From Gari tellinella (Eukaryota; Mollusca; Bivalvia; Cardiida; Psammobiidae), in assembly GCA_922989275.2 (NCBI GenBank), contig OV277858.1, positions 98,194,794 to 98,258,793 on the forward strand: a stretch of DNA of 64,000 nucleotides, in the 5' to 3' direction. The number at the start of each line of letters is the position of its first letter. Within the stretch, counting starts at the first letter, position 1. The translations under genes and the position numbers were made by a program. The notes under the pieces are model-generated. The model was not told where the DNA came from and searched no databases. It worked only from the letters and a program-made list of their open reading frames with translations. Of the stretch, positions 1 to 64,000 are shown one piece after another.

Positions 1-67
1 CTTTCAACCTGCTTTAAGTAGCCGTTTGTCTTCCAAACTAAAGACAGGCTATGGGGTAATGGGTTAA
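1..67. mobile_element. Family A element, right half
   Basis: The window opens inside the right arm of a cassette 1 hairpin and ends at the terminal inverted repeat TATGGGGTAATGGGTTAA. The left part lies outside the window. Confidence 0.75.
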
Positions 68-344
68 AGTAGCCACCTATCTCAAACACACTGCATAAGC
101 TGCGAGGGAAATGGTTAATTGCACAAAAATCATGATCATTATTCCAGCTCTCGTACTATTCCATGTTGTAATACATGCTGTTTCACAAGTTGTTTTTTGT
201 CGTTAATGATCAAATAATTTGTCATAATCTCTCACGAAACATAAATTGAAATGTCTACAGGACATGTTAATCAACTACAACCAAGTTCCGCTATTACGAC
301 CACTCTGTAGTCTTGTTTTCAGTGTTTTAAGGTGGTAGATTGCA

Positions 345-414
345 TAAAGCAAGATGAAAGTAAAGCAGAAAGCTCCTATAGGAGCTTTCTGCTTTACTTT
401 CATCTTGCTTTAAG
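345..414. repeat. Cassette 1 hairpin
   Basis: A near-perfect palindrome of about 70 nt with apex AGCTCCTATAGGAGCT. A fragment resembling a family G end (CTATTACGACCAC) lies just upstream near 291-303, so this may be a decayed G element. Confidence 0.75.
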
Positions 415-1138
415 CTTCCATACAGCATTAGTACTATCAATTAGTGATCAATTAAGTTATTGTGATGGAGGACGTTTACTGTTAGTGGCACAGTATGCAG
501 CACACGCAGAATTACATTTACCACACAGGAACATTGCATGCCAAATACACCTTTTCATTGCAGAAATAGTTCTCTGCTATCAATAGTATGTGCTACTGAT
601 TGAAAAAACTTACATTTATTCCTGATCATTTTTCGACAAAAAAAAGATGTTTAGATGACAATTAAACAAGAACCAAATCAGTTGCTAAAGAGTTGGAGAG
701 TGATACGTGTGGCGACTGTTTGCCCCAAATGTTGGTTTTCATTCAGTCACCAAACCGATGTCAAATGATAACGATTGGTATGCTCTTTTTTTGCCCTGAA
801 CTGCAATGCGTAATGCTAGAAACACAAGTTCGTGTCACTAGAGCAAGTAGTCTTCCAGACTTGAGGAAACTTGATAAAACAGTGAGAGTGTGGGAAAAGA
901 AGCTGTTTTTTCCGCTGGTGACATTTGTTATAAAATTGTTGATATGAAATTCTCAGAATGAGGGCATGTGGCTGTTGTGAATGACAGACAGCAGGTCCTG
1001 TGCCCGTATGTTCTCTACTTTCTTACCAATGGCGTCAATGTGTGATGTAAGCAGAATGTCTAAGATTTTAAAAGCCTTTCCTCAACAGATGCCTTAGCCC
1101 ATTCCTTGATCTGCAGAAGTCACATCACCTCAAACATC

Positions 1139-1213
1139 TCCTGTGAAAAGGTATTGAATTATTATAGAACTATTCAAGAATAATTTCTTGAATACTATGA
1201 ACATTCTCCATTG
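1139..1213. repeat. Family M repeat
   Basis: It matches 22190-22270 and 59455-59545. All share a GGTATTGAATTATT core and a TTCTTGAATA stretch with internal TTCTAGAA-like symmetry. No ends or coding sequence were recognised. Confidence 0.55.
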
Positions 1214-1730
1214 GTGCTATATGACTTATTTTGTGTCACAGCGCGGTAAAACCCAACTCATTCATCCATTTAATGGTCTTCAAAATCAGGTTGGACATAC
1301 TACCTCAGATTGTGTCTCTGATTTAAAGGAGGGTGTGTTTTATCTTGTTAATTCTACTGTGTCACTTGTAACACCTATTCACATATAAGTGGCAAGCTGC
1401 ATTAACCAACAACCTGCCAATGTATTTCCTCACAGACCAAATCAATGTCCTTGAAGTAAGGCAAAACTGTTGTTTTCTTTAATGATTTTAATATCAAGCA
1501 ATGAGCTAAACAAACTAGCCTTGATGAGCATTTGGTGGCAAAGCTTTATGGTATCTAATTTGGATCCAAACATTGTTAGAAGTTGGATAGATAATCTTCA
1601 TAGAGACTAATGCGTAAGCCAACACCAAATATTGGCTGTAGTCGGTTCACTTATCTAAGGTTGTACAATTAAATATATGCTCAATGGCGTTTCAATAGAG
1701 ATGCATACAGACTATTTAAAATACAATGCT

Positions 1731-1804
1731 GCTTAATGCAGGACAAAAGTAATGCAAATGGCTCCTTCAGGAGCCTTTTGCATTACTTTTGTCCTGCATT
1801 AAGC
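1731..1804. repeat. Family J hairpin
   Basis: Self-complementary arms start GCTTAATGCAGGACAAAAGT and meet at GGCTCCTTCAGGAGCC. No terminal repeats are visible outside the hairpin. A decayed relative lies at 2036-2099. Confidence 0.75.
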
Positions 1805-2155
1805 TGACATCTATTGTTTAAACATTCAATAAAATTTATGTCTTCTTTGGAATGGCAGCTGAATACTGGTTTGACTGTGGTAACTTACATGATAAACAAA
1901 CTTTATTGGCACCTAGAGTCAACAGTCATTGTGACCCAGAGTTGTAAGTTTGTCAGCAAGACATGCCAACTACATACGACCAGGATTTAATTTCTGACTC
2001 CTTTTATAATGTCCTAATTTGTATCTATAAAACAGCTTAATGCAACTGAAAGTACATGTAGTGCAGAAAGTTTTTCCATTATTTTTGTCCTGCATTAATT
2101 AGACCACTTGTTTCAAATATCTTCAATTTTTATTTCCGGTAGAGAGATTATTATA

Positions 2156-2465
2156 CAGTGCTCCCTCTCAACAAGAACACCCAATGGGAGACCGAATTGT
2201 GTGTGTTGTTCAGAGGGAGTTGTTGTATGGAGGGAAATGAGCTTACATATTTGCAAACAGCTAGAATCTAGATCAGACACGGCATCATCCGGTGTCTGAT
2301 CTAGATTCAAACTATTTGTCACTTGTCGCTATGTTTTTTGGTCAAAATTTCCAAATTGTAACTTTGAGAAAAGACTGCAAATGACACTTTTAAGCAGACG
2401 ATATTGCAGCTGTGAAAGAGTTAGGAAATCGCTGTTCGGAGGGCTGTTGAGGTTAGGGAGCACTG
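2156..2465. mobile_element. Family H element (Tc1/mariner-like MITE)
   Basis: Terminal inverted repeats CAGTGCTCCCTC and GGGAGCACTG are flanked on both sides by TA, as expected for Tc1/mariner insertion. A cassette 2 hairpin lies at 2251-2318 with an unusual apex. No transposase is encoded. Confidence 0.7.
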
Positions 2466-2754
2466 TATTACTATACTCTCGCATAGGCAATAATTGAATG
2501 TTTTAATGATATTGGCTCCTGATAATAGTAAATTAGTTGTTACTCCCTTGACTGTGTTGCAAAACATCCCAGATCAAATAGAATGAATCTAGATAACATA
2601 AGATACATAGTAATCCCAGGTATTGGATATTTAATCCGAAGTATTTTGCAAATTTCTGCGTTTTTTCCAAAATAAGGTGTGTGAAGAAGAATTTCTCAAA
2701 TTACCCAGTACAGTCTAAACTGCGCTCAGCAGTCACTCAAAATTAGATGGAGAA

Positions 2755-2947: not shown

Positions 2948-2977
2948 TAGAGAAGCAGTCTTTAAACCAGGTAACAG

Positions 2978-3050
2978 TTTAATACAGGGTAAAAGTAATG
3001 CAGAAAGCTCCAAGTGGAGCTTTCTGCATTTCTTTTACCCTACATTAAGC
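2978..3050. repeat. Family J hairpin
   Basis: The arms pair around an AGCTCCAAGTGGAGCT apex, and the whole unit is about 73 nt. Confidence 0.7.
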
Positions 3051-7254: not shown

Positions 7255-7473
7255 TTAACTCTTTGCATGCTGGGTAAATTGTTTCATCTGCAACACTTGT
7301 CGTCTGCTTCTGTTCCAAAAATATAAAACTTAAAACTTTTCTTTTCAAAACAGGGTCAGATTGTCAAACAGTTTGGATCCTGATGAGACGCCGCATTATG
7401 CGGCGTCTCATCAGGATCCAAACTATTTGCAAAGATTATCATGGATTCACTGCTAGCATGCTATTAGAGTTAA
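7255..7473. mobile_element. Family B element, complete
   Basis: This reference copy runs from TTAACTCTTTGCATGCTGGG to TAGCATGCTATTAGAGTTAA. Both ends carry TTAA, which fits a piggyBac-type TTAA target duplication. The cassette 2 hairpin at 7365-7430 has GACGCCGCATTATGCGGCGTC at its tip. Confidence 0.8.
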
Positions 7474-11277: not shown

Positions 11278-11407
11278 GTTTGATGGTACCTAATCTAACA
11301 ATACAGAACTTTCAAAACAAGTTTGTGACAAACAACATCACTCTGTCTCAATGTCTGATCTTGATCCAAACTGTTCACTGCTGTGTGTCAATACCAGATG
11401 TGCTTTA

Positions 11408-11814
11408 CAGTAGAACCTCTTTATTACGACCACTAACAAGAATGTTGAGTGATTATATTGTAAAGACAGGTGACAGCTTTATTTTTAAGCAAGATGACAG
11501 TAAAACAGAAAGCTCCTTTAGGAGCTTTCTGTTTTACTGCCGCCTTGCTATAAGCAGACACCTGCCGTAAACACATACTAATTAACACAGTTTAGTGGTT
11601 GTAATACAGAGATCCAGATAAGGGGAGTATTTCAGAAACTAAAATCTTTATTTTTGCATTAATCCCAATGGTGTTTCTACTCATTAGAATCGTCTCTTCG
11701 AGACGATTCTAATGAGTAGTGACACCATAGGATTTGGTCCTGAAATAAGTGAAAAATGTTGGATTTGTTCAGTTTACTTCATCTTAGCCCTGTTGTTATA
11801 GAGAGGTTCTACTG
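11408..11814. mobile_element. Family G element interrupted by family F
   Basis: Ends CAGTAGAACCTCTTTAT and AGAGAGGTTCTACTG are flanked by TA. The cassette 1 hairpin (ACAGAAAGCTCC variant) is at 11485-11555. The right arm is split by a family F insertion. A 31-bp unit covering the right end is repeated in tandem at 11795-11856. Confidence 0.75.
11607..11792. mobile_element. Family F element nested in family G
   Basis: Its 8-bp flanks are TTGTAATA (11599-11606) and TTGTTATA (11793-11800), seven of eight identical. The hairpin loop reads TTC with the GATAAGGGGAG side on the left. Confidence 0.8.
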
Positions 11815-12042
11815 TATTATGGGCTGTTATAGAGAGGTTCTACTGTATTATGGGCTATGTGTCCTTCACACCTGTTTGGAGTCACTGATTTGAGTCAATA
11901 TCCAGCTGCTGCTGATGCAAGTAAATCATGTTCACCTGACTGGTAACCAGCAATGAGTGACCATTGCAGATGTCTGTGTCTGCCATAAAACATCTAGCCT
12001 GGAACCAGCTAGGTCTGTGGCCACCAATAAATCAATAAATTT

Positions 12043-12130
12043 ATCAGATGCCATTATTATGTGGCGTCTGATTTGGATCCAGCCAGTTTGCAGATATTAC
12101 TCAAGTCATGATTAGCACTCTTAGGGTTAA
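12043..12130. repeat. Cassette 2 fragment
   Basis: ATCAGATGCC and GGCGTCTGAT arms pair around ATTATTATGT. It runs to a TTAA that the next element shares. Confidence 0.5.
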
Positions 12131-12379
12131 CCCTTTCCCACATAGAAGTGCCTTTTGGCCCATTTAATTTATTCCTCCACATAAGAAAATAGTTCCTATT
12201 TTATACAGTCATGAATATGTTTTATAAGAAATACTTTCTATATTCTAGCAGATGGTAACTTAAAGCAGGTTGAAAGTAAAGCAGAATGCACCTAAAGGTG
12301 CATTCTGCTTTACTTTTAACCTGCTTTAAGTGGCTGTCTATCTTCAATATTAGATATAACCTATGGGGTTAAGGGTTAA
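12127..12379. mobile_element. Family A element, complete
   Basis: It has TTAACCC at the left and GGGTTAA at the right. The cassette 1 hairpin at 12259-12330 has the compensated tip GCACCTAAAGGTGC. Its left TTAA is also the right end of the preceding repeat. Confidence 0.8.
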
Positions 12380-15873: not shown

Positions 15874-16307
15874 TTAACCCATTACCCAATAAATACGCCT
15901 TTTTACACCTTTAATTAATTCCTCCACTGATCGAAAATAATTCCAATTTATTCAGTCATGAAAGATATTATAAAGAATATTTCCTATATCCTAGCAGATG
16001 GTAACTAAAAACAGGCTGAAAGTAAAGCAGAACTGCTTTACTTTCAACCTGCTTTAAGTGGTCACCTGTCTTCAAAACTAGAAACAGGGTATCGGTTAAC
16101 CCATTACCCCATAGCCTATTTTTAGTATTGAATATAGGTGACTACTTAAAGCAGGTTGAAAGTAAAGCAGAATGCTTTAAGCTACCATCTACTAGAAAAT
16201 TAAAAAAAATCTCTTATGACACATATTCATCACTGTGTAAAGTGGAACTACTTTCATCAAAAATAATTCAAAGGCGTAAAAAGATGTATTTATGGGTAAT
16301 GGGTTAA
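15874..16307. mobile_element. Two family A elements sharing one TTAA
   Basis: Copy one is 15874-16099 and copy two 16096-16307, in opposite orientations and joined at a single GGTTAACCC. Copy one has lost the hairpin tip (GCAGAACTGC). Copy two has lost nearly a whole arm (GCAGAATGCTTTAAGC). Confidence 0.75.
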
Positions 16308-17590: not shown

Positions 17591-17804
17591 TTAACCCATA
17601 GCCTGCCACTCACGACTATAGCTCCATATGCAAACAGCTTGGATCCGGATGAGACGCCGAGTAACTCGGCGTCTCATCCGGATCCAAGCTGTTTGACACT
17701 CGGACAACATTTTCAGCAATTTTGAGCAACTTTGAAGCACTTTGAAACTTGAAGCAGACGAGAAATATAGCAGACGACAATTTATTTGGCGGGCTAAGAG
17801 TTAA
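17591..17804. mobile_element. Family C element, intact
   Basis: This 214-bp copy carries TTAA at both ends and a perfect 65-nt cassette 2 palindrome (17630-17695) centred on CCGAGTAACTCGG. It differs by eye at only two bases from the copy at 23269-23482. Confidence 0.85.
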
Positions 17805-18157: not shown

Positions 18158-18165
18158 AGGGTTAA

Positions 18166-18792: not shown

Positions 18793-18999
18793 AAGGTAAA
18801 ACTTCTCTATTAAGAAAACTAAAACGAATGGTAATTGATTGTATAAAAGAAAGGTGACAGCTTAAAGCATGGTGAAAGTAAAACAGAAAGCTCCTAAAGG
18901 AGCTTTCTGTTTTACTTTCACCTTGCTTTAAGCAGCCACCTGCCTTAATCTAAAAAATAATTAATGTTATATAGTGGTCGTAATAGCGAGGTTTGACTG
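18793..18999. mobile_element. Family G element
   Basis: The right end GGTTTGACTG is followed by TA and the left end is worn. The cassette 1 hairpin at 18861-18933 has the apex AGCTCCTAAAGGAGCT. Confidence 0.7.
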
Positions 19000-19137
19000 T
19001 AAATGTGGAATAGTGATGTGTTTTTGGCTGAAGTAAAATATGAGTCATGGAAATGAATGGTGTTATTTCCTAAAACTGATGTCCTAAACTTGTTTCGTCA
19101 ACCAAGCAAACCAAGATATATGAACTGTCTTTAACCC

Positions 19138-21429: not shown

Positions 21430-21718
21430 GCTTTACTTTCAGCCTGCTTTACGCAACCACCTGTCTTAACTCTTTACTCCATAACCTGTGTCTAGTTTTG
21501 CAGACAGGTGACCACTTAAAGCAGGTTGAAAGTAAAGCAGAATGTGCCCTAAGGTGCATTCTGCTTTACTTTCAGCCTGCTTTAAGCTATTATCTGCTAG
21601 GATACAGAAAATATTTCTTATGCTACATATTCATGACTGTATAAAAGGGAACTATTTTATTCAGTGGAGTAGGTAATTATAGGCGTAAAAAGGCATATTT
21701 ATGGGGGAAATGGGTTAA
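21430..21718. mobile_element. Family A element preceded by an orphan hairpin arm
   Basis: The element is 21466-21718, with TTAA at both ends and a cassette 1 hairpin at 21515-21586. The 35 bp before it (CTTTACTTTCAGCCTGC) are a lone right arm of another copy. Confidence 0.75.
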
Positions 21719-22482: not shown

Positions 22483-22982
22483 TTAACCCATTACCTCATA
22501 GCCTGTTTCTAGTTTTGAAGACAAATGACTACTAAAAGCAGATTGAAAGAAAAGCAGAATGCGCCTTAACCCTTTCCCTGATAGAAGCGCTTTTAAGCGC
22601 ATTTAGTTTATTCCTCCGCTGAAGAAAATAGTTCCAATTTATAATGTCATGAGTACGTATCATAAGAAATATACTCTATATTCTAGCAGATGGTAGATTA
22701 AAGCAGGCTGAAAGTTAAGCAGAATGCGCCTTAAGGCGCATTCTGCTTTACTTTCAACCTGCTTTACGTAGTCACCTATCTTTAAAACTAACAACATGCT
22801 ATGGGGTAAAGGGTTAAGGCGCATTCTGCTTTACTTTCAGCCTGCTTTAAGCTTATTTCTGCTAAAACATAGAAAATATTTTCAACATACAATATTTATG
22901 ACTGTATAAATTGTAATATTTTCTTCAGTGGAGGAATAAATTAAAGGTGTAAAAGAGGTGTATTTATAGGGTAATGGGATAA
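22483..22982. mobile_element. Family A element interrupted at its hairpin apex
   Basis: The outer copy has its hairpin cut exactly at the apex GCGCC-TTAA-GGCGC by another family A element. Removing 22570-22817 restores a continuous hairpin. The outer right terminus has decayed to GGGATAA. Confidence 0.85.
22566..22817. mobile_element. Family A element nested in family A
   Basis: This complete copy has TTAA at both ends, TTAACCCTTTCCCTGATAGA and GCTATGGGGTAAAGGGTTAA. Its own hairpin also has tip GCGCCTTAAGGCGC, and it is in the reverse arm order to its host. Confidence 0.85.
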
Positions 22983-23069: not shown

Positions 23070-23272
23070 TTAACTCTTTGCATGCTAGGTCAATTTTTTG
23101 TCAGCAACATTTTGTCATCTTATACTGTTCTAAAAATAGAATTTTCAAAACAGGGCCAGAGTGTCAAACAGATTGGATTCTGATAAGACGCAGCATATGC
23201 AGAAACTCATCAGGATCCAAACTGTTTGCAAAGGTTATCATGGTTTCATCACTGAGCGTGCTAAGAGTTTAA
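23070..23272. mobile_element. Family B element
   Basis: TTAACTCTTTGCATGCTAGG starts the element. Its cassette 2 hairpin has mismatched arms. The last TTAA is shared with the following family C copy. Confidence 0.7.
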
Positions 23273-23482
23273 CCCTTAGCCTGCCACTCACGACTATAGC
23301 TCCATATGCAAACAGCTTGGATCCGGATGAGACGCCGAGTAACTCGGCGTCTCATCCGGATCCAAGCTGTTTGACACTCGGACAACATTTTCAGCAATTT
23401 TGAGCAACTTTGAAGCACTTTGAAACTTGAAGCAGACGAGAAATATAGCAGACGACAATTTATTTGGCGGGCTAAGGGTTAA
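23269..23482. mobile_element. Family C element, intact
   Basis: This 214-bp element carries the same perfect 65-nt palindrome as 17591-17804, and both copies are in the same orientation. It sits on the terminal TTAA of a family B element. Confidence 0.85.
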
Positions 23483-24809: not shown

Positions 24810-25063
24810 CAGGGCTGCCACAAGTTGACATGAAAAATCCTAAGATTTCCAAATTTGCATTTTTCAAGTGCGATTTTACGAATCCTACCTTTACTCCATA
24901 GCCTTTTTCTTGTTTTGTTGACATGTGACTACTTAAAGCAGGCTGTAAGTAAAGCAGAATGCGCCTTAGGGCGCATTCTGCTTTACTTTCAGCCTGCTTT
25001 AAGCTACCATGTACTTGGAAAAAATCCGGAGATTTAGGAAAAATCCGGAGAAATGGAGCTCTG
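24810..25063. mobile_element. Family I element, copy 1
   Basis: It runs from CAGGGCTGCCACAAGTTG to AAATGGAGCTCTG and is flanked by AATAAA directly on each side (24804-24809 and 25064-25069). A cassette 1 hairpin lies at 24932-25002, tip GCGCCTTAGGGCGC. A doubled AATCCGGAGA follows the hairpin. Confidence 0.75.
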
Positions 25064-25329: not shown

Positions 25330-25734
25330 CAGTAAAACCTCATTTTTAAAACCAGGGCTCCAGCTAAGGGGAGTATTTCAAAAATTAAAATCTTCATTTC
25401 TGCATTAAACCCTATGGTGTCACTACTCATTAGAATTGTCTTGAAGAGATGATTCTAATGAGTAGTAACACCATAGGATTTGGTGCTAAAATTAGTGAAA
25501 AAATGTCGATATTGTTCAGTTCACTCCCTCTTATCTGGAGCCCTGGTTAAAACCACTAAAATAAGGAATAATTGATTGTATAAAAGACAGGTGATGACTT
25601 AAAGCAAGGTGACAGTAAAACAGAAAGCTCCTAAAGGAGCTTTCTGTTTTACTGTCACCTTGCTTTAAGCAGTCAAACATCTGAAACATCTAACATTTAA
25701 TATAACTTAGTGGTCGTAATAGAGAGGTTTAATG
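25330..25734. mobile_element. Family G element interrupted by family F
   Basis: The left end CAGTAAAACCTC is preceded by TA. The hairpin with ACAGAAAGCTCC lies at about 25598-25670. A family F element sits near the left end. Confidence 0.75.
25353..25545. mobile_element. Family F element nested in family G
   Basis: It has intact ends CAGGGCTCCAGC and CTGGAGCCCTG. Flanks are TTTAAAAC (25345-25352) and GTTAAAAC (25546-25553), seven of eight identical. The hairpin loop reads GAA, inverted relative to most same-orientation copies. Confidence 0.8.
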
Positions 25735-26919: not shown

Positions 26920-27132
26920 TTAACTCTTTGCATGCTGGGTAATTTTTCGTCTGCAACAATTGTCTAAAAATAGTTTTCTTTCATTTTTTTTTTTAAAAAA
27001 ACAAAAAAAACAGGGTCAGAGTGTCAAACAGTTTGGATTCTGATGAGACGCCGCGTTACGCGGCATCTCATCAGAATCCAAACTGTTTGCAAAGGTTCTC
27101 ATAGTTTCCACCGCTTGCATGCTAAGAGTTAG
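26920..27132. mobile_element. Family B element
   Basis: TTAACTCTTTGCATGCTGGG is the left end and GCATGCTAAGAGTTAG the right. The hairpin at 27025-27090 uses GGATTCTGATGAG, mirrored as CTCATCAGAATCC. Confidence 0.75.
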
Positions 27133-27429: not shown

Positions 27430-27817
27430 GAAGCTCCCTCTCTACAACGACACCCGATGGGAGACAAATATTGTGCGTGTTGTGCGGAGGGAGTTGTTAT
27501 AGGGAGGGAAAAGTAATACCCTCACAGTTATAAACATGACTTGGCTTACATTTGCAAACAGTATGAATCCAGATCAGATGCCGGGTAATGTGGCGTCTGA
27601 TCTGGGTTAAAACTTTTTGTCACTCCTCTTTTTGTTTCATATGCCCAATGTCAAATAATTATGTAACTTTGAAAGAGAAGGCAGAGAACAATTTTTAGCA
27701 GACAATATTGCAGCAGCGAAAGCATTAGACATAATAGTCTTGTTTGGGGAATAGTGGCAAGCGTTGTTGTAAGGAGGGAATTGTTGTTTGGAGGGCTGTT
27801 GTAGGGAGGGAGCACTG
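27430..27817. mobile_element. Family H element
   Basis: The right end GGGAGGGAGCACTG is intact, and the left is worn to AGCTCCCTCTCTAC. A cassette 2 hairpin occupies about 27552-27620. GGGAGTTGTTATAGGGAGGG near the left pairs with the left end. Confidence 0.65.
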
Positions 27818-28092
27818 TTCTTAAAAAAATATGAAATAGATATAATTATAGCTCATTTTCAATTCTAAAGACAATCATGGTTGCTTAAAACAGGCTGAAA
27901 GTCATGACAGTCCTAAGTGACATCCAAATTGACAGAAAACCAAAAACAATGAGATCAAATCTGCTAGCTAAAATCTAGAGAACTTGTTTCCTGAATTGAA
28001 GGGTTTAGCTAATAAATGATTACTGCATGGAGAAAGCTTTGGCGGCAGTAGGTAATTCAGTGATTTGTCTTGAGAGACATTCTAGTCATGTA

Positions 28093-28297
28093 CAGTAAAA
28101 CCCCTCTATTACGACCACTAAAACGAAGTCTAATTGATTGTATAAAAGGCAGGTGACTGCTTAAAGCAATGTGAAAGTGAAACAGAAAGCTCCTGTAGGA
28201 GCTTTCTGTTTCACTTTCACATTGCTTTAAGCAGTCACCTGTCTTGAACGACTAATATTTGACAAAACTTAATGGTCATAATAGAGGGGTTCTACTG
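28093..28297. mobile_element. Family G element, complete
   Basis: Ends CAGTAAAACCCCTCTATTA and AGAGGGGTTCTACTG are flanked by TA. The cassette 1 hairpin at 28159-28232 is a perfect palindrome with 36-nt arms around GT. Confidence 0.85.
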
Positions 28298-28533
28298 TAT
28301 TTTCATTGAACAGTCATGTAACACAGGTTTGCTGAGTGAATGAAATTGATTGTTACAGGAATTAGAGATTGTAGAATTTTAAAGATTGGTCTCCATTAAT
28401 AAAGACCATAAAGATTGTCAACTGATAATAATGTGTTTAAACTATGAATAATATGATATCTGCTCAAAATGTCGTCCGATGTAATTCTAAAATTGATTTG
28501 GTAATTGCAAATATAGATGAAAGATCTGTGTTG

Positions 28534-29776: not shown

Positions 29777-29916
29777 AGGCATTTTGAGTGTTAGTATTAT
29801 ATGTCTGAATCAGGCATTTTGAGTGTTAGTATTATATGTCTGAATCAGGCATTTTGAGTGTTAGTATTATATGTCTGAATCAGGCATTTTGAGTGTTAGT
29901 ATTATATGTCTGAATC
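29777..29916. repeat. 35-bp tandem repeat, four copies
   Basis: The unit starts AGGCATTTTGAGTGTTAG and the four copies are identical by eye, so the array is young. Confidence 0.9.
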
Positions 29917-34204: not shown

Positions 34205-34402
34205 TTGTAACTTAGCATGCTGGCATGCTGCAAACAGTTGGATCCTGATGAGATGCCTCGTAACACAGCGTCTCATCAGGATCCATATTGTTTGACACTG
34301 ACTGACCTTGTTTTGAAAAGAAATTTTGAAAAGTTCAAGTATTAGAATAGTAGGAAACGACAATTTATGCATGCGTAAAAAATTACCCAGCATGCAAAGA
34401 GT
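34205..34402. mobile_element. Family B element truncated by a tandem array
   Basis: The hairpin at 34229-34295 is well paired. The right end CCCAGCATGCAAAGAGT stops one or two bases before TTAA, where the 52-bp array begins. Confidence 0.7.
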
Positions 34403-35026
34403 AGAATGGCAGGTGAATACAGGTTCAACTGTAGAGACAATAACTATTGTAAGTAGAATGGCAGGTGAATACAGGTTTAACTGTAGAGACAATAACTATT
34501 GTAAGTAGAATGGCAGGTGAATACAGGTTTAACTGTAGAGACAATAACTATTGTAAGTAGAATGGCAGGTGAATACAGGTTTAACTGTAGAGACAATAAC
34601 TATTGTAAGTAGAATGGCAGGTGAATACAGGTTTAACTGTAGAGACAATAACTATTGTAAGTAGAATGGCAGGTGAATACAGGTTTAACTGTAGAGACAA
34701 TAACTATTGTAAGTAGAATGGCAGGTGAATACAGGTTTAACTGTAGAGACAATAACTATTGTAAGTAGAATGGCAGGTGAATACAGGTTTAACTGTTGAG
34801 ACAATAACTATTGTAAGTAGAATGGCAGGTGAATACAGGTTTAACTGTTGAGACAATAACTATTGTAAGTAGAATGGCAGGTGAATACAGGTTTAACTGT
34901 AGAGACAATAACTATTGTAAGTAGAATGGCAGGTGAATACAGGTTTAACTGTAGAGACAATAACTATTGTAAGTAGAATGGCAGGTGAATACAGGTTTAA
35001 CTGTAGAGACAATAACTATTGTAAGT
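34403..35026. repeat. 52-bp minisatellite, 12 copies
   Basis: The unit starts AGAATGGCAGGTGAATACAG and contains the imperfect palindrome ACAATAACTATTGT. Copies are nearly identical: the first has one C for T, and two central copies carry TTGAG for AGAG. Short open frames inside are by-products. Confidence 0.95.
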
Positions 35027-35433: not shown

Positions 35434-35686
35434 TTAACCCTGTCCCTCATAGAAGCGACTTTTAGCGTATTTAATATATTCCTCCGCTGAAGAAAATAGT
35501 TCTTGTTTATACCCTCATGAACAATAACCATTACAAATATTTTCTATAACTTAACAGATTTTAGCTTAAAGCAGGCTGAAAGTAAAGCAGAATGTGCCTT
35601 AAGGCACATTCTGCTTTACTTTCAACCTGCTTTAAGTGGTCACCTGTTTTTCAAAACTAGAATCAGGGTATGGAGTAATGGGTTAA
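35434..35686. mobile_element. Family A element, complete
   Basis: It has TTAA at both ends and a cassette 1 hairpin at 35564-35635 with tip GTGCCTTAAGGCAC. A second GGTAAAGGGTTAA follows at 35693-35705, as if this copy landed close to another element's end. Confidence 0.8.
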
Positions 35687-35931: not shown

Positions 35932-36187
35932 CAGGGCTGCCATAAGTTGACATGAAAAATCCTAAGATTTCCAAATTTGAATTTTTCAAGTGCGATTTTA
36001 CGAATCATACCTTTACCCCAATAGCCTTTTTCTTAACTTGCTGACATGTGACTACTTAAAGCAGACTGTAAGTAAAGCAGAATGCACCTAAGGGTGCATT
36101 CTGCTTTACTTTCAGTCTGCTTTAAGCTACAATGTACTGGGAAAAAATCCGGAGATTTAGGAAAAACCCGGAGAAATGGCAGCCCTG
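35932..36187. mobile_element. Family I element, copy 2
   Basis: Intact ends CAGGGCTGCCATAAG and AATGGCAGCCCTG are directly flanked by ATCATG on both sides. The hairpin at 36055-36126 carries mirrored changes relative to copy 1 (GCAGACTG/CAGTCTGC against GCAGGCTG/CAGCCTGC). Confidence 0.85.
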
Positions 36188-36595: not shown

Positions 36596-37090
36596 TTAAC
36601 CCTTTACCCCATAGCCTGTTTCTAGTTTTGAAGACAGGTGGTCACTTAAAGCAGGTTGAAAGTAAAGCAGAATGTGCCTTAAGGTGCATTCTGCTTTACT
36701 TTCAGCCTGCTTTAACCCATTACCCCTTAAAAACGCCTTTTTACGCCTCTATTTATTCCTCCACTGAAGAAAATAGTTCCAATTTATACAGCCAAGAATA
36801 TGTATCAGAAGAAATATTTTCTATATCCTTGCAGATGGTAGCTTAAAGCAGGCTGAAAGTAAAGCAGAATGTGCCTTAAGGCACATTCTGCTTTACTTTC
36901 AACCTGCTTTAAGTGGTCACCTGTTTTCAAAGCTAGAAATAGGCTAAGAGGTAATGGGTTAAGCTACTATCTGCTAGGGTATAGAAACTATTTCTTTGGA
37001 TACTTATGAGTGTATAAATTGGAACTATTTTCTTCTGTGGAGGAATAAATTAATTTTGCTAAAAGGCGCTTCTATGGGGGAAAGGGTTAA
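36596..37090. mobile_element. Middle family A element of the nest
   Basis: It has TTAACCCTTTACCCCATAGC at the left and GGGGAAAGGGTTAA at the right. Its complete hairpin tip is GTGCCTTAAGGTGC. The right base TTAA of that hairpin is the entry point of the inner copy. Confidence 0.8.
36712..36962. mobile_element. Inner family A element of the nest
   Basis: It is bounded by TTAA on both sides and has a fully paired hairpin with tip GTGCCTTAAGGCAC. Removing 36716-36962 joins CCTGCTTTAA to GCTACTATCTGC, the normal family A continuation. Confidence 0.85.
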
Positions 37091-38802: not shown

Positions 38803-39057
38803 CAGGGCTGCCATAAGTTGATATGAAAAATCCTAACATTTAAAAATTTGCATTTTTCAGGTGCGATTTTACGAATCGTACCTTTACCCCTTAGCCTTTT
38901 TCTTGTTTCGTTGACATGCGACTTCTTAAAGCAGGCTGTAAGTAAAGCAGAATGCGCATTAGGGCGCATTCTGCTTTACTTTTAGCCTGCTTTAAGCTAC
39001 CATGAAATTGAAAAAAATCCGGAGATTTAGGAAAATTCCGGAGAAATGGCAGCCCTG
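38803..39057. mobile_element. Family I element, copy 3
   Basis: Ends CAGGGCTGCCATAAG and AATGGCAGCCCTG are directly flanked by CTAAAT (38797-38802 and 39058-39063). It interrupts a cassette 2-like hairpin: GGATCCCGATCAGATGCC on the left and CTCATCAGGATC on the right. Confidence 0.85.
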
Positions 39058-39512: not shown

Positions 39513-39726
39513 TTAACCCTTAGCCCGCCAAATAAATTGTCGTTTGCTATATTTCTCATCTGCTTCAAGTTTCAAAGTGCTTCAAAGTTGCTCAAAATTG
39601 CTGAAAATGTTGTCCGAGTGTCAAACAGCTTGGGTCCGGATGAGACGCCGAGTTATTCGGCGTCTCATCCGGATCCAAGCTGTTTGCATATGGAGCTATA
39701 GTCGTGAGTGGCAGGCTAAGGGTTAA
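39513..39726. mobile_element. Family C element, reverse orientation
   Basis: This 214-bp copy has TTAA at both ends. It differs from the two other copies at several bases, including the hairpin tip (CCGAGTTATTCGG). Confidence 0.85.
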
Positions 39727-42664: not shown

Positions 42665-42930
42665 CAGTGCTCCCTCCCTACAACGGCCCTCCAAAAACGA
42701 TTTCCTCTTTACAACAATGATTGCCGCTGTTATATCTAACCTTTTCACAGTTGCAATATTGGCTGCTTACAATTATTGTTGTCTGCTGTTTTTCTTACAT
42801 AATGGAAATTTTGACAGAAATAAAACATAATGACGAGTGACAAACAGCTTGAATCCAGATCAGAGGCTGCGTAAAAAGTGGCATCTGATCAGAATTCAAG
42901 CTGTTTGCAAATGTCAGCCAATTTACCTCA
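42665..42930. mobile_element. Family H element, one end lost
   Basis: TA precedes CAGTGCTCCCTCCCTAC. A cassette 2 hairpin (about 42841-42907) has arms GCTTGAATCCAGATCAGA and TCTGATCAGAATTCAAGC. The far terminus is not recognisable. Confidence 0.6.
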
Positions 42931-46242: not shown

Positions 46243-46314
46243 CTTAAAGCAGGATGAAAGTAAAGCAGAAAGCTCCTGTAGGAGCTTTCTGCTTTACTTT
46301 CATCCTGCTTTAAG
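46243..46314. repeat. Cassette 1 hairpin, perfect
   Basis: Two 35-nt arms are exactly complementary around GT. TTTTATACAGGTTGCTG flanks the left side, but no terminal repeats were found. Confidence 0.8.
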
Positions 46315-48314: not shown

Positions 48315-48781
48315 TTACTCTTAGCATGCTAGCGGTGAAAACAGGATAATTAACCTTTGCAAACAGTTTGGATCCTAATGAGATGCCGCGTCACCCGGCG
48401 TCTCATCAGGGGCCCGTTTTACTAAACAACTTACGCAAATTATTTGCGTAAGTCAAAATTTTAAATTTTAATTTATATTTTTTATTATCACTTGCTACAA
48501 ACAGAAAATAGCCAGATCACAGGACGCGCTTATAGCACGTCCTCTGGTCTGGCTATTTGCTGTTTGCAAACGTTTATGATCGAAAAATAAGAGTAAAAAG
48601 ATTTTGACTTACGCAAAATTTTTGCGTAAGTTGAGTTTAGTAAAACGGGCCCCAGGACCAGAACGGTTTGACACTCTGATCTTCTTTTGAAAAGAAATTT
48701 TGAAAAGTCTTATTTTTGAACAATATAGCAGACGAAAATTGTTGCAGACGAAAAAAGAATTCCCAGCATGCAAAGAGTTAA
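48315..48781. mobile_element. Family B element interrupted by a GGGCCC-ended element
   Basis: The reverse-oriented copy ends CCAGCATGCAAAGAGTTAA. Its cassette 2 hairpin is split after GCGTCTCATCAG. The remainder CAGGACCAGAACGGTTTG follows the insert. Confidence 0.75.
48410..48652. mobile_element. 243-bp GGGCCC-ended MITE (Harbinger-like?)
   Basis: Perfect terminal repeats GGGCCCGTTTTACTAAAC are flanked by CAG on both sides (48407-48409 and 48653-48655), a 3-bp duplication that would fit PIF/Harbinger. Sub-terminal ACTTACGCAAATTATTTGCG repeats form small hairpins at each end. A cassette 2-like hairpin sits in the centre (48498-48567). Confidence 0.8.
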
Positions 48782-50873: not shown

Positions 50874-51079
50874 CACTAGAACCACTCTATAGTGACTCAC
50901 AAAGTAATTAAGCCTAACTATTGAGTTTTAAGACATGTGACAGCCTAATGCATGATAAAAGTAATGCAGAAAGCTCCTTAGGGAGCTTTCTGCATTACTT
51001 TAATCCTGCATTAAGCATCCATGTGCCTTTTAAGATCCCTTTTTTATTACTAATATGTTATTCTAGAGATGTCGTACTG
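50874..51079. mobile_element. TA-flanked element with family J hairpin
   Basis: Worn ends CACTAGAACCACTCTATAG and AGAGATGTCGTACTG are flanked by TA. The hairpin (50944-51015) is of the GTAATGCAGAAAGCTCC type otherwise seen as bare family J, which ties J to a mariner-like context. Confidence 0.6.
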
Positions 51080-52589: not shown

Positions 52590-52957
52590 TATGTTTTACC
52601 CTTTTATGCATTCAATTTATTCCTCCTCTAATAGGTCCATTTTATACAGTCATGAATATGACATTGTATCATAAGGATTAGTTTCTATATTCTAGCAGAT
52701 GGTAGCTTAACCCATTACCCCATAGCCAGTTTCTAGCACTGAAGATAGGTGACCAATTAAAGCAGGTTGAAAGTAAAACAGAATGCGCCTTATGGTGCAT
52801 TCTGCTTTACTTTCAGCCTGCTTTAAGCTACCATCTGCTAGAATACAGAAAATATTTATTATGGTGCATATTCTTGACTGTATAAATTAGGTCTATTTTC
52901 TTCAGTGGAGGAATAAATTAAAGGTGTAAAAAGGAGTATTATGGGGTAATGAGTTAA
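52590..52957. mobile_element. Family A left half with a second family A at its hairpin base
   Basis: The left half (52590-52706) reaches GCAGATGGTAGC, and at TTAA (52707) a complete reverse-order copy begins and runs to 52957. Its hairpin (52745-52826) has tip GCGCCTTATGGTGC. The rest of the first copy is missing. Confidence 0.7.
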
Positions 52958-53959: not shown

Positions 53960-54037
53960 AGGTGATAAAAATAGTCTGAGAATAGAACAGGGCATTCAAG
54001 GCCTGTCTGTCTATGTGTCATGGATAGTTTTGACATA

Positions 54038-54244
54038 CAGTAAAACCTCTCTATTACAACCGCTAAAAACAAAGGCTAATTTATTGTATAATAGAAAGGT
54101 GACAGCTTTAAAGCAAGGTGACCATAAAACAGAAAGCTCCTAAAGGAGCTTTCTGTTTAATTGTCACCTTGCTTTAAGCAGTCACCTGGCATAAACACCT
54201 AATAATTAACACAATTTTGTGGTCGTAATAGAATGGTTTTACTG
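54038..54244. mobile_element. Family G element, complete
   Basis: CAGTAAAACCTCTCTATTAC and TAGAATGGTTTTACTG are flanked by TA. The cassette 1 hairpin has tip AGCTCCTAAAGGAGCT. Confidence 0.8.
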
Positions 54245-54281
54245 TAAACCTGTACGGTACCAAGAATGACTTGAGTGGCAT

Positions 54282-55766: not shown

Positions 55767-56019
55767 TAAACCCATTACCCCATAGCCTATTTCTAGTTTT
55801 GAAGATAGGTGACCACTTAAAGCAGGTTGAAAGTAAAGCAGAATGTGCCTTAAGGCACATTCTGCTTTACTTTCAGCCTGCTTTAAGCTAAAATCTGCTA
55901 GGCTATATAAAATATTTGTAATGGTTATTGTTCATGAGGGTATAAAACTGGAACTATTTTCTTCAGCGGAGGAATAAATTAAATACGCTAAAAGTCGCTT
56001 CTACAGGGGAAAGGGTTAA
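55767..56019. mobile_element. Family A element flanked by a long direct repeat
   Basis: It has a paired hairpin with tip GTGCCTTAAGGCAC and ends CCCATTACCCCATAGCC and GGGGAAAGGGTTAA. The 35-39 bp starting TTAATCATGATGTACAGG occur both before it (55732-55770) and after it (56016-56054). Confidence 0.75.
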
Positions 56020-56366: not shown

Positions 56367-56617
56367 TTAACCCTTTGAACCCTTGTCCCGCATATAGCCG
56401 TCCTTTTCAAACAGTGTACATGAGAATTGTACACTTGTCCTATGCAAACAGTGAAGACCCAGATCAGAGGGCTCCGAAAGGAGCCCTCTGATCAGGGTCT
56501 TCACTGTTTGTCATAATGTCAAACATTGACAAAAACCACCCTTAAAAGTCAGAAATGGACTAGACTTAAATGGAAACTGGAAAGGTCCATTTAAAGTTTT
56601 AGGGAGGAAAGAGTTAA
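56367..56617. mobile_element. Family D element, complete
   Basis: This 251-bp copy has TTAA at both ends. The cassette 2 hairpin at 56444-56510 has tip GGGCTCCGAAAGGAGCCC. It serves as reference for the truncated copies. Confidence 0.85.
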
Positions 56618-58148: not shown

Positions 58149-58342
58149 CAGTAAAAACTCGATTCTACCAACTTGTGTTTGTTTGAACATACCCATATTT
58201 TAAAGTTAAAACGTGGCTTGGCCACGTTTTAACTTTGAAATACGGGTATGTTCGACCTAAACGAGATCGACTTATCAAAATTCAACTGACAAAATACTGG
58301 TAAAATTGATTTAAGCGAGTTCATAGTATCAAGCTTCGACTG
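58149..58342. mobile_element. Family K element (Tc1/mariner-like)
   Basis: CAGTAAAAACTCGATTCTAC and AAGCTTCGACTG are flanked by TA. It carries a third hairpin type at 58186-58253: AAAGTTAAAACGTGGC pairs with GCCACGTTTTAACTTT. Confidence 0.7.
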
Positions 58343-58641
58343 TATATTTATGGAGCTTTACAGATTTTGACCATATTACACTGCCTGCCTCTGAATGCTA
58401 TAAAAGTGGCTGATAGGCGGGTCACTACAGGTAGTGTCCTCGTATGACCCGCAACTGACCAGCGGTCAGTATTGTGGTTGTAATTGAAGAAGCCTAATTA
58501 GGGAGCTTACATGTAAATTCACGGCTGCAGGTTGCCGAGACTGTTTAGCTGCCAGGTAAAAGTTCAGCTGGTAACGGACACTGACATGAGACTTGGTTAG
58601 GGACACCCTAGCCATTGCCTCCTGCAAAATGTAAAATAATA

Positions 58642-58846
58642 CAGTCAAACTTCTCTATAATGACCACTAAATTGTGTCAATTATTAGGTGTTTGTGAAAG
58701 GTGATTGCTTAATGCAAGGTGACAATAAAACAGAAAGCTCCTAAAGGAGCTTTCTGTTTTACTGTCACCTTGCTTTAAGCTGTCACCTGTCTTTTATACA
58801 ATCTATAAGTCATTTTTTTAGTGGTCGTAATAGAGAGGTTTTACTG
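58642..58846. mobile_element. Family G element, complete
   Basis: CAGTCAAACTTCTCTATAATG and AGAGAGGTTTTACTG are flanked by TA. The cassette 1 hairpin (58707-58780) starts with the J-like GCTTAATGCAAGGTGA on the left but CACCTTGCTTTAAGC on the right. Confidence 0.8.
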
Positions 58847-58909
58847 TACAGTCAGTGGCTACACTTTGAAGAAGAATGGTGATAGCTGAATATTGAGGGG
58901 ACTGCTTAT

Positions 58910-59125: not shown

Positions 59126-59430
59126 CAGGGCTCCCTCTCTACAACAACACCCTATGGAAGACAAAGATTATGTGTGTTGTTCCGAGGGAGTTGTTATAGG
59201 GAGCAGGGCTCCAGATAAGAGGTAGTTATTTCAACAAATCCAACATTTTCTCAGTCTTTTTAGCATCAAATCCTATGGTGTTACTACTCATTAGAATCGT
59301 CTCGAAGAGACGATTCTAATGAGTAGTGACACCATAGGGTTTAATTCAGAAATAAAGATTTTAGATTTTGAAAAACTACCCTTATCTGGTGCTCTGGGGA
59401 GAGAAGAGTAATACCCTTAGAATACATAAT
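59126..59430. mobile_element. Family H fragment interrupted by family F
   Basis: TA precedes CAGGGCTCCCTCTCTAC. GGGAGTTGTTATAGGGAG is split from GGGAGAGAAGAGTAATACCC by a family F element. The rest of the H element is missing. Confidence 0.6.
59204..59396. mobile_element. Family F element nested in family H
   Basis: CAGGGCTCCAGATAAGAGG to TTATCTGGTGCTCTG, reverse arm order, perfect hairpin with loop GAA. GGGAG lies directly on both sides. Confidence 0.7.
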
Positions 59431-59980: not shown

Positions 59981-60086
59981 TTAACCCTTTGACTGCTGAT
60001 AGCGAACATTGTGGCTTTTTGAAAACAGTGTATACCCAGATTAGACAGCTCCTGAAGGAGCTGTCTGATCAGGGTCTGCACTGTTT
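59981..60086. mobile_element. TTAA element cut at its hairpin
   Basis: TTAACCCTTTGACTGCTGAT leads to a cassette 2 hairpin (60021-60086) with tip GACAGCTCCTGAAGGAGCTGTC. The right flank is replaced by the repeat at 60087. Confidence 0.6.
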
Positions 60087-61312
60087 TTAGCTCACCTGAG
60101 CTAGCTCAGGGTGAGCTATTGCAATCCTTGATTGTCCGTCGTCCGTCGTGCGTCGTCCGGGCGTCAACAATTTTAGTTTTTACACTCTAGAGGCCACAAT
60201 ATTTATCCAATCTTTCTCAAACTTGCTCAGATGGTATATTGCCATAAGAGTTCGGATAAGTTCGATTATGGTTGAAATCGGACAAAAAGGTCATGAGTTA
60301 TCTACCTTTGAACTGCTGAAAATGCCATATTTAACAGTGTTTACACTCTAGAGGCCACAGTATTTATCCAATTTTTCTAAAACTAGCCCAGATTGTATAT
60401 GACCATAAGAGTTTGGATGAGTTAGATTATGGTTGAAATCAGACAAATAGATCAAGAGTTATTTACCTTTGAATTGCTGAAAATGCCATATTTAACAGTG
60501 TTTACACTCTAGAGGCCACAATTTTTATCGAATCTATCTCAAACCTGCTCAGATTGTAAATGACTATAAGAGTTCAGATGAGTTTGATTATGGTTGAAAT
60601 CAGACTTATAGGTCGAGAGTTATCTACCTTTGAATTGCTGAAAATGCCATATTTAACGATGTTTACACTCTAGAGCTCACAAATTTTATCCAATCTTCCT
60701 CAAACATACTCAGATTGTATATTGCCATAAGACTTTGGATGAGTTCAATTATGGTTGTAATCTGATCAATAGATCAAAAGTGATCTACCTTTTAATTGCT
60801 GAAAATGATAATATTTAACAGTGTTTACACTCTAGAGGCCACAATATTTATCCAAGTTCTCTCAAACTTGCCCAGATTGTATATGACCATAAGAGTACGA
60901 AAAAGGGTGATTATGGTTGGAATTGGACAAATAGATCAAGAGATATCTACCTTTGAAATGCCATATTTTATAGCGTTTACACTCTTGCAACTACAGTTTT
61001 CAATGGATTTTGATTATACTTGTACACAAAGGATGTAGCTATACGTTCTGGAAGGAGTGCAATTATTGTTGAAATGTAATCATTGTGGCAACAGTTACCT
61101 GCCCTTGATATACTTTGAAATGCTAGAAAAAGGCTTCATTTCAGTATTATTTAGGCACTAGTTATCTGCCTTTGATGTACTCTACTATACTACAATAGGT
61201 CGACAAACTTGAATGGATTTAGAATAAAACGGGTGAAATTCAAAGGTAAAGCTATCAGGCTTAATTACAAATGGTGAGCGATATCAGGGCCTTCAGGCCC
61301 TCTTGTCTTATA
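60087..61312 (+). mobile_element. Bivalve TTTAGCTCACCTGAGC repeat with internal tandem units
   Basis: The left end forms a hairpin (AGCTCACCTGAGC / GCTCAGGGTGAGCT). GTCCGTCGTCCGTCGTGCG follows. Then about five imperfect units of roughly 161 bp start TTTACACTCTAGAGGCCACA (near 60179, 60340, 60501, 60662, 60823) with a shorter sixth at 60976. The right end has a second hairpin, CAGGGCCTTCAGGCCCT, then CTTGT. This resembles non-autonomous Helitron-type repeats, but that is inference. Open frames inside follow the units. Confidence 0.75.
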
Positions 61313-62246: not shown

Positions 62247-62416
62247 CTAGAGCTCCAGATAAGGGGAGTAATTCAAAAACGAAAAACTTTATTTCTAAAT
62301 TAAACCCTATGGTGTTACTACTCATTTGAATCGTCTCGAAGAGACGATTCTAATGAGTAGTTACACCATAGGATTTGGTGCTGAAATCAGAGAGAAAATG
62401 TTGGATTTGTTCAGTT
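62247..62416. mobile_element. Family F element, right end lost
   Basis: AGAGCTCCAGATAAGGGGAG starts the element; the sequence leaves the family after GGATTTGTTCAGTT. The loop is GAA, inverted for this orientation. Confidence 0.65.
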
Positions 62417-63049
62417 GGCTCGGAGTTTAGTGAGTCGGGCCACCAACCCTCACCACCAACAGGTGTTGCTGTATACCCGGCAATGTTTATCAGCGGAAAT
62501 AATCCACTGGACTGTATTTCATAAAGAAAGTGTCAAAAGTGACACACCAAAATGTACGCTTTGTTTTTTGATTGACGTTGGGGTGGCTGAAGTCAAAATT
62601 CGGAAGAACTCAGCTGGGGCATTAGCCCGAATTACAGAATTTTAATGAGGGGTCACTGCTCTCGCGAACGCAAAAATATTGTGGTCAGTTATATGTTTAT
62701 ACAGGGGAATGGGGTGGTTTAGATTTCAATTATATGTTTGGTGTAATATGAATGATAACTTGGCAGGGTTTGTTACAGCTGATTCATTGTGATGATTGGC
62801 ACACGGTTCAAGACTTTGAGTCTGTAATAGAATACATAGGTGCAAAAGGGGTGTCTGCTTCATATACATGTTACATGAGTATTTCCCTCTGAATTATTGC
62901 TTTCTTTAAAGAATTAAAATGTTATTTTCAATAGTTTTCTGGTCATAATTAGGGTACTATAAAGATTAATAATAACATTGATAAAGTCAAAACTGTATTA
63001 AGAGACTTGCAATGAAAACAGCATGAGCATCTTCAAGGTAAGCAGACTA
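62417..63049. other. Single-copy-looking stretch
   Basis: The first 230 bp are less AT-rich and hold a 76-codon plus-strand frame (to 62645) with no recognised domain. The rest is AT-rich without repeats. Confidence 0.4.
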
Positions 63050-63121
63050 CCTAATGCAAGATAAATATAATGCAGAAAGCTCCTTGAGGAGCCTTCTGCA
63101 TTATTTTTATCATTCATTTAG
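63050..63121. repeat. Family J hairpin
   Basis: CTAATGCAAGATAAATATAA pairs with TTATTTTTATC..CATT around AGCTCCTTGAGGAGCC. Confidence 0.6.
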
Positions 63122-63363
63122 CAACTACCAATATATTTAAAATTGTCTTTTTGTCTTTGGCTGTTACATTTTGACAACAATTTCAAATTTGAAAATCTTT
63201 TGAGAAATACTTTTGTCTATTGTTGAAAAAAGTTTCTTTCTGAAAAATGGAATTTTGATGAACTTGTGCCCTTTTGACACCAAGGGTAGGTGGATGATCT
63301 GACGGAAGACTTTGTAATGTTAGCTCAAAGATGACTTGCGTGATCTACAGCAAAGTGAACAGA

Positions 63364-63545
63364 TTAACCTTTGGCATGTTATTCTAAAAAATTGTGTTAG
63401 CTTTTGCAAACAGTTTGAAGCCAGATGAGACACTGAGTAATTCAATATCTCATCTGGATCCAAACAGTTTGCTATTCAGGTGATATTTCTGAAAAAGAAA
63501 AGTAAAATATATCAGCTCTGAGATATATGGCAAATGATGCATTTT
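63364..63545. mobile_element. Family L element
   Basis: TTAACCTTTGGCATG starts the element. The cassette 2 hairpin at 63405-63472 has GAAGCCAGATGAGAC paired with a mutated right arm. Confidence 0.55.
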
Positions 63546-63606
63546 AGTGTTGAACATTACTTATTATGCTGAAGGTTAAATGATAGAATAATTTCTGGCA
63601 TGGCTG

Positions 63607-63661
63607 GACCCCTTTTCATTATTCAGGTGACAACTATTTTAACAATGATGAAGGGGTCCAC
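63607..63661. repeat. Imperfect palindrome
   Basis: TGGACCCCTTTTCATTATTC faces AATGATGAAGGGGTCCA across about 18 nt. It is unlike either cassette. Confidence 0.65.
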
Positions 63662-63755
63662 TGGAAGGGTTGACAAGAAGGATCATTGCAATGAGAAATG
63701 TCGTAGGGCTTATGAATAAATACTTTACCTCCCACCAACATGGCTGGGACCCTTT

Positions 63756-64000
63756 TTATCCCGTTACCCCATAGCCTCTTTCTAGTTTTGCAAACAGATT
63801 ACCATTTAACTCTTTGAACCCTAGTCCCGCATATAGGCGTGCTTTTCAAACAGTGTACATGTGAATAGTACATTTGTCCTATGCAAACAGTGAAGACCCT
63901 GATCAGAGCGCTCCGAAAGGAGCCCTCTGATCAGGTTCTTCACTGTTTGTCACAATGCCAAACATTGACAAAAACAACCCTTAAAAGTCAGAAATGGACT
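63756..64000. mobile_element. Family A left arm entered by a family D element
   Basis: CCCGTTACCCCATAGCCTC through GATTACCAT is the left arm of a family A copy. At the hairpin-base TTAA (63806-63809) a D element starts (CTCTTTGAACCCTAGTCCCG) and continues past the window edge, with its hairpin at about 63883-63949. Confidence 0.75.

Follow-up and report, generated by a model that had tools for sequence, protein, structure and literature searches.

Hairpin cores shared by MITE-like elements with different ends in a 64-kb stretch of the Gari tellinella genome

The present analysis concerns a 64,000-nucleotide stretch of the bivalve Gari tellinella (assembly GCA_922989275.2, contig OV277858.1, positions 98,194,794 to 98,258,793, forward strand), referred to here as the window, and the short hairpin-bearing repeats that it contains. 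These repeats are best explained as miniature inverted-repeat transposable elements (MITEs), a class of non-autonomous DNA transposons; their ends are of at least four types, and a long hairpin forms the core of each. In three families the hairpin is the least variable part of the element, and the families therefore seem to retain it as a unit. These results are best read as a sign that such MITEs gain hairpin cores again and again and that selection keeps the cores in place. We hold, with modest confidence, that nested capture spreads the hairpin cores among MITE families and that a core is kept because it favours amplification. MITEs reach high copy numbers without coding anything; if the shared hairpin core is the conserved part, the success with which one non-autonomous element outcompetes others would be partly independent of the transposase. 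Families A to J were named in a sequence-only reading that gave no coordinates, and their letters were matched to elements in this analysis.

Self-similar repeats cover 46% of the window. A stem-loop scan (score at least 14, loop at most 12) returned 83 stem-loops, against 0, 0 and 0 in three first-order Markov shuffles, and nearly all of the 83 are accounted for by three cassettes, C1, C2 and C3. Cassette profiles marked 149 hairpin-derived regions at E<1e-3 (C1 73, C2 61, C3 15). Only one repeat stretch of at least 50 bases under at least four self-matches, an A flank at the window edge, lay more than 160 bp from a cassette match, a proximity count that accepted matches at E<1e-2 and includes some accidental neighbours. 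Folded as single-stranded DNA, six representative hairpins reached -26 to -57 kcal/mol, with z between -10.5 and -20.5. Short elements with terminal inverted repeats were evident for A (about 250 bp), G (about 208 bp), I (about 255 bp) and the C3 family (about 190 bp). TTAA stands at the ends of A, B, C and D and TA at the ends of G and H, as read in sequences and alignments and uncounted per copy. The TTAA group (A to D) may be piggyBac- or Kolobok-like, although the ends alone cannot tell the superfamily, and G and H, with TA at their ends, may be Tc1/mariner-like. The hAT superfamily is characterized by 8-bp (or 5-8 bp) duplications and CAGGG-type ends; by these features C3 and I may be hAT-like, with CAGGG ends and a duplication that is 6 bp in I and irregular in C3. 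A common origin of C1 with C2 or C3 was unsupported in 12 arm comparisons (P 0.11-0.96). The window contained neither a tRNA nor an Rfam family at gathering score, and Pfam gave no match for eight long open reading frames plus one 4.7-kb stretch in six frames.

The conservation of the hairpin was measured in families A, B and C3. Family A has TTAACCC ends and a C1 hairpin, and its copies were obtained from pairs of flank-profile matches. Flank-only profiles of A gave 38 left and 47 right matches at E<1e-2, and the 32 left-right pairs listed comprised 21 with a hairpin-sized middle (two of them rearranged), six with the centre deleted and five with a long gap, three of these holding inserts and two pairing across another copy. 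A trace of C1 was kept in all 27 uninterrupted pairs. Examples of the family are as follows.

36713-36962, minus strand: family A, C1 hairpin 36842-36913, nested in another A copy (profiles, flank pairs)
55767-56018, plus strand: family A, C1 hairpin 55816-55887 (flank profiles and pairs)
35435-35686, minus strand: family A, C1 hairpin 35565-35636 (flank profiles and pairs)
12128-12379, minus strand: family A, mirrored apical change
21466-21717, plus strand: family A, C1 hairpin (flank profiles and pairs)
52707-52956, plus strand: family A, C1 hairpin (flank profiles and pairs)
16096-16306, plus strand: family A, hairpin centre lost (flank pair)
22483-22980, plus strand: family A, with a second A (22567-22817) in the loop TTAA of its hairpin (flank pair)

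Substitutions were counted in 19 of the 21 A copies with a hairpin-sized middle. The arms departed from consensus in 4.4% of cells and the two flanks in 12.3% and 15.4%, the arms being lower in 19 of 19 copies. Singleton variants were taken as mostly post-insertion and shared variants as mostly inherited from source elements. In the cleanly aligned parts of A, B and C3 together, the arms held 21 shared and 92 singleton variants in 183 sites and the flanks 150 shared and 217 singleton variants in 301 sites, or 4.3-fold fewer shared variants per site in the arms (arms versus flanks: P 7e-11 for shared, 0.02 for singleton and 1e-5 for the shared:singleton contrast). By family, the contrast gave P 0.004 in A and 0.027 in B. 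Over all sites, shared variants per site in the arms and in the terminal 16 nt were 0.10 and 0.47, 0.24 and 0.53, and 0.07 and 0.22 in the three families, rates compared without statistics. That the arms are poorer than the flanks in shared variants in three families is a new observation. The contrast fits constraint on the source elements, and a lower mutation rate alone should reduce shared and singleton variants alike. The C3 counts used 12 of 14 flank pairs, a flank-only search having recovered the same 12 copies plus two, and the B counts used 13 hairpin-picked copies (a B flank search gave 21 left-flank matches, 10 of them paired).

Two further features of family A were recorded. The hairpin centre is deleted in 6 of the 27 uninterrupted pairs (16099, 16096, 19465, 21384, 30147 and 41511), as is expected from palindrome instability. 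The C1 loop in family A is CCTTAAGG, and interrupted loops occur at 22546, 36576, 39899, 51882 and 52450; inside such loops stand the A element 22567-22817, another A that begins at 36596 and, near 39893, a D element; the loops at 51882 and 52450 are also interrupted, by unassigned sequence.

Nesting of one element in another was also found in I and H. The ends of element I are CAGGGCTGCC, and an exact 6-bp duplication borders each of its three copies, in one of them after a 1-base end shift.

24810-25063, plus strand: element I, duplication AATAAA, A fragment with C1 inside
35932-36187, plus strand: element I, duplication ATCATG
38803-39057, plus strand: element I, duplication CTAAAT

The left flank of A beyond the palindrome is present in I (P 0.0005 in 3/3 copies), the homology stopping about five bases before A's TTAA end, and two of these copies also gave an A-left match by nhmmer (E 9.8e-6 and 6.7e-3). 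We read I as an A element captured within hAT-like ends. The three H copies, one of them incomplete, are built alike, with outer TA-ended parts and an inner C2 segment.

2156-2465, plus strand: element H, TA-ended, TTAA-type C2 segment within
27430-27817, plus strand: element H, second copy
42665-42929, minus strand: element H, third copy, incomplete

The long flank of H matched the flanks at 7614, 17631, 23598, 42841, 27025 and 7365 (P 0.001-0.003, 6/10 comparisons); position 42841 is an H copy itself, which leaves five independent matches. The short flank reached P<0.01 in 2/10 comparisons, 60022 and again the H copy 42841. H is read as a TTAA element nested within a TA element. The sequence-only reading had proposed that hairpins behave as modules spreading between MITE families, and had named one ancestral element with both end types nested as the outcome that would speak against this. 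Such nesting is what was found for I and H, whose sharing of cassettes across families arises because one element is nested in another.

Cassette 1 was likewise said to occur within A, G and I and also as bare hairpins, J. Its presence between TTAA, TA and 6-bp-flanked ends was seen in A, G and I; the bare hairpins fared otherwise. Family G has TA ends, a C1b hairpin and a length of about 208 bp where uninterrupted, and is present in six copies, including the following.

28092-28298, plus strand: family G, C1b hairpin 28146-28245
54037-54245, plus strand: family G, C1b hairpin
58641-58847, minus strand: family G, C1b hairpin
18793-19000, plus strand: family G, C1b hairpin
11407-11815, plus strand: family G, with a C3 element (about 11607-11790) inside the right terminal repeat

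Just outside this C3 insertion, a perfect 31-bp tandem duplication (11794-11856) contains the G terminal repeat. Fourteen C1 hairpins not belonging to A, G or I were picked by eye and their flanks compared with a matrix of 11 G terminal repeats; other degenerate C1 arms, among them those at about 35405, 47225 and 39753, lie outside this set. A terminal-repeat match at p<0.05 was found in 10 of the 28 flanks (binomial 5.6e-7), on at least one side of 8 of the 14 hairpins, and all ten relics are in register, at 36-46 nt from the hairpin as against 36-47 in G. Eight of the 14 bare hairpins are decayed TA elements. The other six lack a relic at p<0.05, which decay is compatible with as well. The suggestion that a free hairpin might itself be the amplifying unit finds no support, because 8 of the 14 supposedly bare copies are such decayed elements. 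Examples, listed without strand and classified with the G terminal-repeat matrix, are as follows.

343-414: C1 hairpin J, G-like relics in both flanks
1732-1803: C1 hairpin J, relic in right flank
50944-51015: C1 hairpin J, relics in both flanks
46243-46314: C1 hairpin J, arms 34/34 complementary, relic in left flank
2978-3049: C1 hairpin J, without relic at p<0.05

Two other links between families may be older. The arms of A and G are homologous, at the permutation floor (P 0.0005), and the whole left flank of A, outer palindrome included, matches the G/J flanks (0/300 shuffles as high), while the whole right flank of A showed no match to them (P 0.69). A TGACTGTA-like stretch in the right flank of A hints at a TA-end relic (P 0.02-0.075 over four versions). 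The link of A with G/J shares the hairpin only, and an old capture with eroded flanks would explain it as well as a hairpin transfer. The second link concerns cassette 2, whose earlier placement was confirmed for families B, C and D with their TTAA ends, for H with its TA ends and for a 243-bp CAG-flanked element at 48410-48652.

26920-27132, plus strand: family B, TTAA ends, C2 hairpin 27025-27089
7255-7471, plus strand: family B, C2 hairpin 7365-7429
17591-17804, plus strand: family C, TTAA ends, C2 hairpin 17631-17695
23269-23482, plus strand: family C, C2 hairpin
39513-39726, minus strand: family C, C2 hairpin
56367-56617, plus strand: family D, TTAA ends, C2b hairpin 56445-56510
48410-48652, plus strand: CAG-flanked element, GGGCCCGTTTTACTAAAC-type ends, C2-like hairpin 48498-48566, within a B-type hairpin

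The flanks of B resemble those of C by descent (P 0.0005 on the long side and 0.019 on the short side), and the sharing of the cassette between these two families is therefore ordinary descent as well. D is at best weakly related to B and C in its flanks (six comparisons, P 0.046-0.089 in five and 0.62 in one). The CAG-flanked element has an exact CAG on both sides in its one copy, and a PIF/Harbinger-like label, which would rest on this 3-bp duplication, is a candidate assignment. Compared with the nearest typed C2 arm, its two arms have 9 and 10 differences in 31 positions, and its hairpin matches the C2b arm at P 0.0005. With both the A/G and the CAG/C2b arm comparisons at the permutation floor, chance similarity of the cassettes was ruled out. 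The flanks of the CAG element matched TTAA-type flanks in 0/12 comparisons (P at least 0.24). This link too shares the hairpin only, and hairpin transfer again explains it no better than old capture with eroded flanks. Outside the hairpin even two TTAA-ended families, B and D, are barely alike (P 0.046, 0.084 and 0.62), so that loss of flank similarity is expected at such ages and transfer of the hairpin alone is not proven. Beside the C2 elements, a 52-bp tandem repeat (34400-35026, 12 copies, 99% matches) begins at the end of a B-like element, and a 161-bp tandem array (60175-60961, about 4.9 units) begins about 90 bp past the C2-like hairpin 60022-60087.

The third cassette, unnamed in the earlier reading, lies in a hAT-like family with CAGGGCTCC ends. 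Target duplications in this family are irregular, no fixed size being found.

59204-59396, minus strand: family C3, CAGGGCTCC ends, loop TTC in family orientation
25353-25545, plus strand: family C3, inverted loop GAA, within a G terminal repeat
32135-32311, plus strand: family C3, inverted loop GAA

Relative to the flanks, the loop reads TTC or TTT in 8 of 12 copies and GAA or AAA in the other four. At about 4% per site, it is not credible that each such copy gained three coordinated loop substitutions. A single inherited inversion was also unsupported, the flanks of the four inverted copies being no more alike than those of randomly drawn sets of four (P 0.80), a weak test with 12 nearly equidistant copies. 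Our reading is that loop inversion in C3 has probably been recurrent. Template switching is a published route to mirrored stem changes and loop inversion, and hairpins reportedly arise, persist and have their loops inverted by it (PMC8794818). The C3 inversions would serve as a natural trace of hairpins extruded in an animal genome.

Paired change in the stems was found at the level of lineages. Both sides had changed in 15 of 34 pairs of the C1 subclasses (88 cells versus 28.8 in shuffles) and in 15 of 31 pairs of C2 (41 versus 14.8); 0/500 shuffles were as high for either cassette and slid partners gave 5-11 cells, counts that come from 33 of 49 C1 places and 17 of 41 C2 places and are inflated by relatedness. 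The arms of one hairpin were then compared with arms of other copies, in 22 A-type hairpins, 15 of G and J, 9 of B, 19 of other C2 and 12 of C3. Mismatch within versus between copies was 2.60 versus 6.64 of 34 positions in G and J and 4.11 versus 9.60 of 31 in other C2 (permutation P <1 in 20000 for both), with P 0.017 in B. In A it was 3.41 versus 3.68 (P 0.06, and 0.67 without the apical sites), and C3 showed no difference (3.50 versus 3.45; P 0.74 and 0.22). Since arm similarity is clear in G and J and in other C2, marginal in A and absent in C3, the stems look renewed or selected per lineage rather than corrected copy by copy after recent bursts.

The proposed mechanism would begin with a composite, formed by insertion of one element into a second or by capture within it. 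The outer ends would then amplify the composite, and the redundant inner ends would decay. The hairpin would stay, since sources with good hairpins may multiply better whatever transposase serves their ends. Capture, mobilisation by outer ends and decay of inner ends are visible here at different ages, with I and H younger and J, perhaps also A, older. We infer three things: the hairpin promotes amplification, it folds in DNA in vivo, and the A-G and C2-CAG links go back to old captures of this kind. The account builds on the nesting in I and H, the decayed ends round 8 of the 14 J hairpins, the scarcity of shared stem variants, the mirrored changes along lineages, the near-independent drift of the arms in A and C3, and the loop inversion in C3. 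A number of points weigh against it. The amplification benefit of the hairpin is putative, and the scope is one 64-kb window of one genome. The right flank of I resembles that of A weakly (P 0.028, 0.11 and 0.15). Between A and G/J nothing was detectable in the flanks beyond the palindrome (P 0.74 left, 0.83 right), and the hint of a TA-type relic in the right flank of A is weak, with none in its left flank (P 0.22-0.84). Low arm variation could also reflect conversion among copies or a locally lower mutation rate, and singletons too are somewhat fewer in the arms. B copies (and C3 copies at first) were chosen by hairpin, and C3 alone was not significant in the shared:singleton contrast (P 0.068).

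Other explanations place the hairpin in a different role. The idea of modules moving between families, against which the nested captures I and H speak, keeps a weaker form through the two palindrome-only links and the low variability of the hairpin. In its strong form, which we think unlikely, the hairpin would be a transposase-independent module, families swapping or acquiring a few cores that make any ends amplify better and each core turning over by extrusion of the DNA hairpin, which loop inversion would reveal; the histories of ends and cores would then be distinct, in the manner of a mix-and-match parasite. It is similarly doubtful that the palindrome by itself moves or is transferred between element families, through template switching or hairpin-to-hairpin conversion and independently of the ends. 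Mobility of this kind would suit the A-G/J and C2-CAG links, palindrome-only with unlike flanks, the six J hairpins without an end relic at p<0.05 and the inverted loops of C3 (4/12, not grouped by flank, P 0.80), which suggest that stems engage each other. Missing flank similarity nevertheless says little when the flanks of B and D, both TTAA-ended, are barely alike too. All 27 uninterrupted A pairs and all 14 flank-found C3 pairs, moreover, hold the hairpin or a remnant, so that no empty recipient is seen, the at least four truncated A right-flank fragments without C1 beside them being uninformative.

Less likely again is that self-correction in place, by template switching inside the palindrome, keeps the stems perfect with no benefit to the element. 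Mirrored changes do exceed independence in A (6 versus about 0.4) and B (8 versus about 1.4), C3 adds one versus about 0.25 expected together with its loop inversion, and the published accounts of hairpin maintenance cited above lend the process plausibility (PMC8794818). Yet five of the six mirrored A changes and four of the eight in B sit at one apical site each and may mark subfamilies, 16 of 19 A copies retain a T/C mismatch at arm position 11, and arms of one copy are hardly closer than arms of different copies in the recent bursts of A and C3. The elements might instead be ordinary MITE families that fall into subfamilies, their palindromes internal remnants of old nested insertions without a special role and their low stem variation an effect of ascertainment or mutation rate. 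Nested insertions are indeed common in the window, C2 in B and C is due to common descent, the B copies were hairpin-picked and singletons are fewer in arms too. This explanation seems improbable to us, however, as A copies found by flank still show 4.4% in arms versus 12-15% in flanks in 19/19 copies, and the C3 copies used were 12 of the 14 found by flank. Nested capture followed by retention of the hairpin is the reading that we prefer.

Comparison with known systems gives partial likenesses. The hATpin elements are reportedly among the MITEs that form stable secondary structures, and the present elements resemble such structured MITEs in being short and non-coding, with terminal inverted repeats, target duplications, strong foldback and many copies. 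The foldback here is, in contrast, a separate internal hairpin rather than paired termini, and the same hairpin occurs between different ends. As in nested or composite transposons, I and H hold the flank of one element within the ends of another in three copies each; unlike those, the older links have lost the inner ends while the hairpin remains. The bacterial REP hairpins with their RAYT proteins and the mitochondrial double-hairpin elements are also compact palindromes in many scattered copies, whereas the hairpins here lie inside terminal repeats and no bare amplifying unit was found among them. In the open-licence literature searched, by titles and abstract openings, no description of a hairpin core common to MITEs of different end types was found. 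Exact and gapped patterns gave no matches in viral and genome contigs, a set from which the window's own genome was possibly excluded. Paired stem changes and whole-loop inversion are shared with template-switch hairpins (PMC8794818). In that source, compensatory changes with loop inversion are called extremely rare and 69 loop-only clusters are reported; it treats RNA genes, with no occurrence of "transpos" in its text, while here 4 of 12 loops are inverted in a MITE family.

Two remaining features stand apart from the three cassettes. A 35-bp tandem repeat is present at 29777-29921 in about four copies (99%), and a fourth hairpin was found.

58185-58253, no strand: C4, hairpin of 69 nt unrelated to the others (stem-loop scan, DNA fold)

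The C4 hairpin is flanked by TACAGTAAAAACTCG and CTTCGACTGTA and is apparently the core of another TA-ended element.

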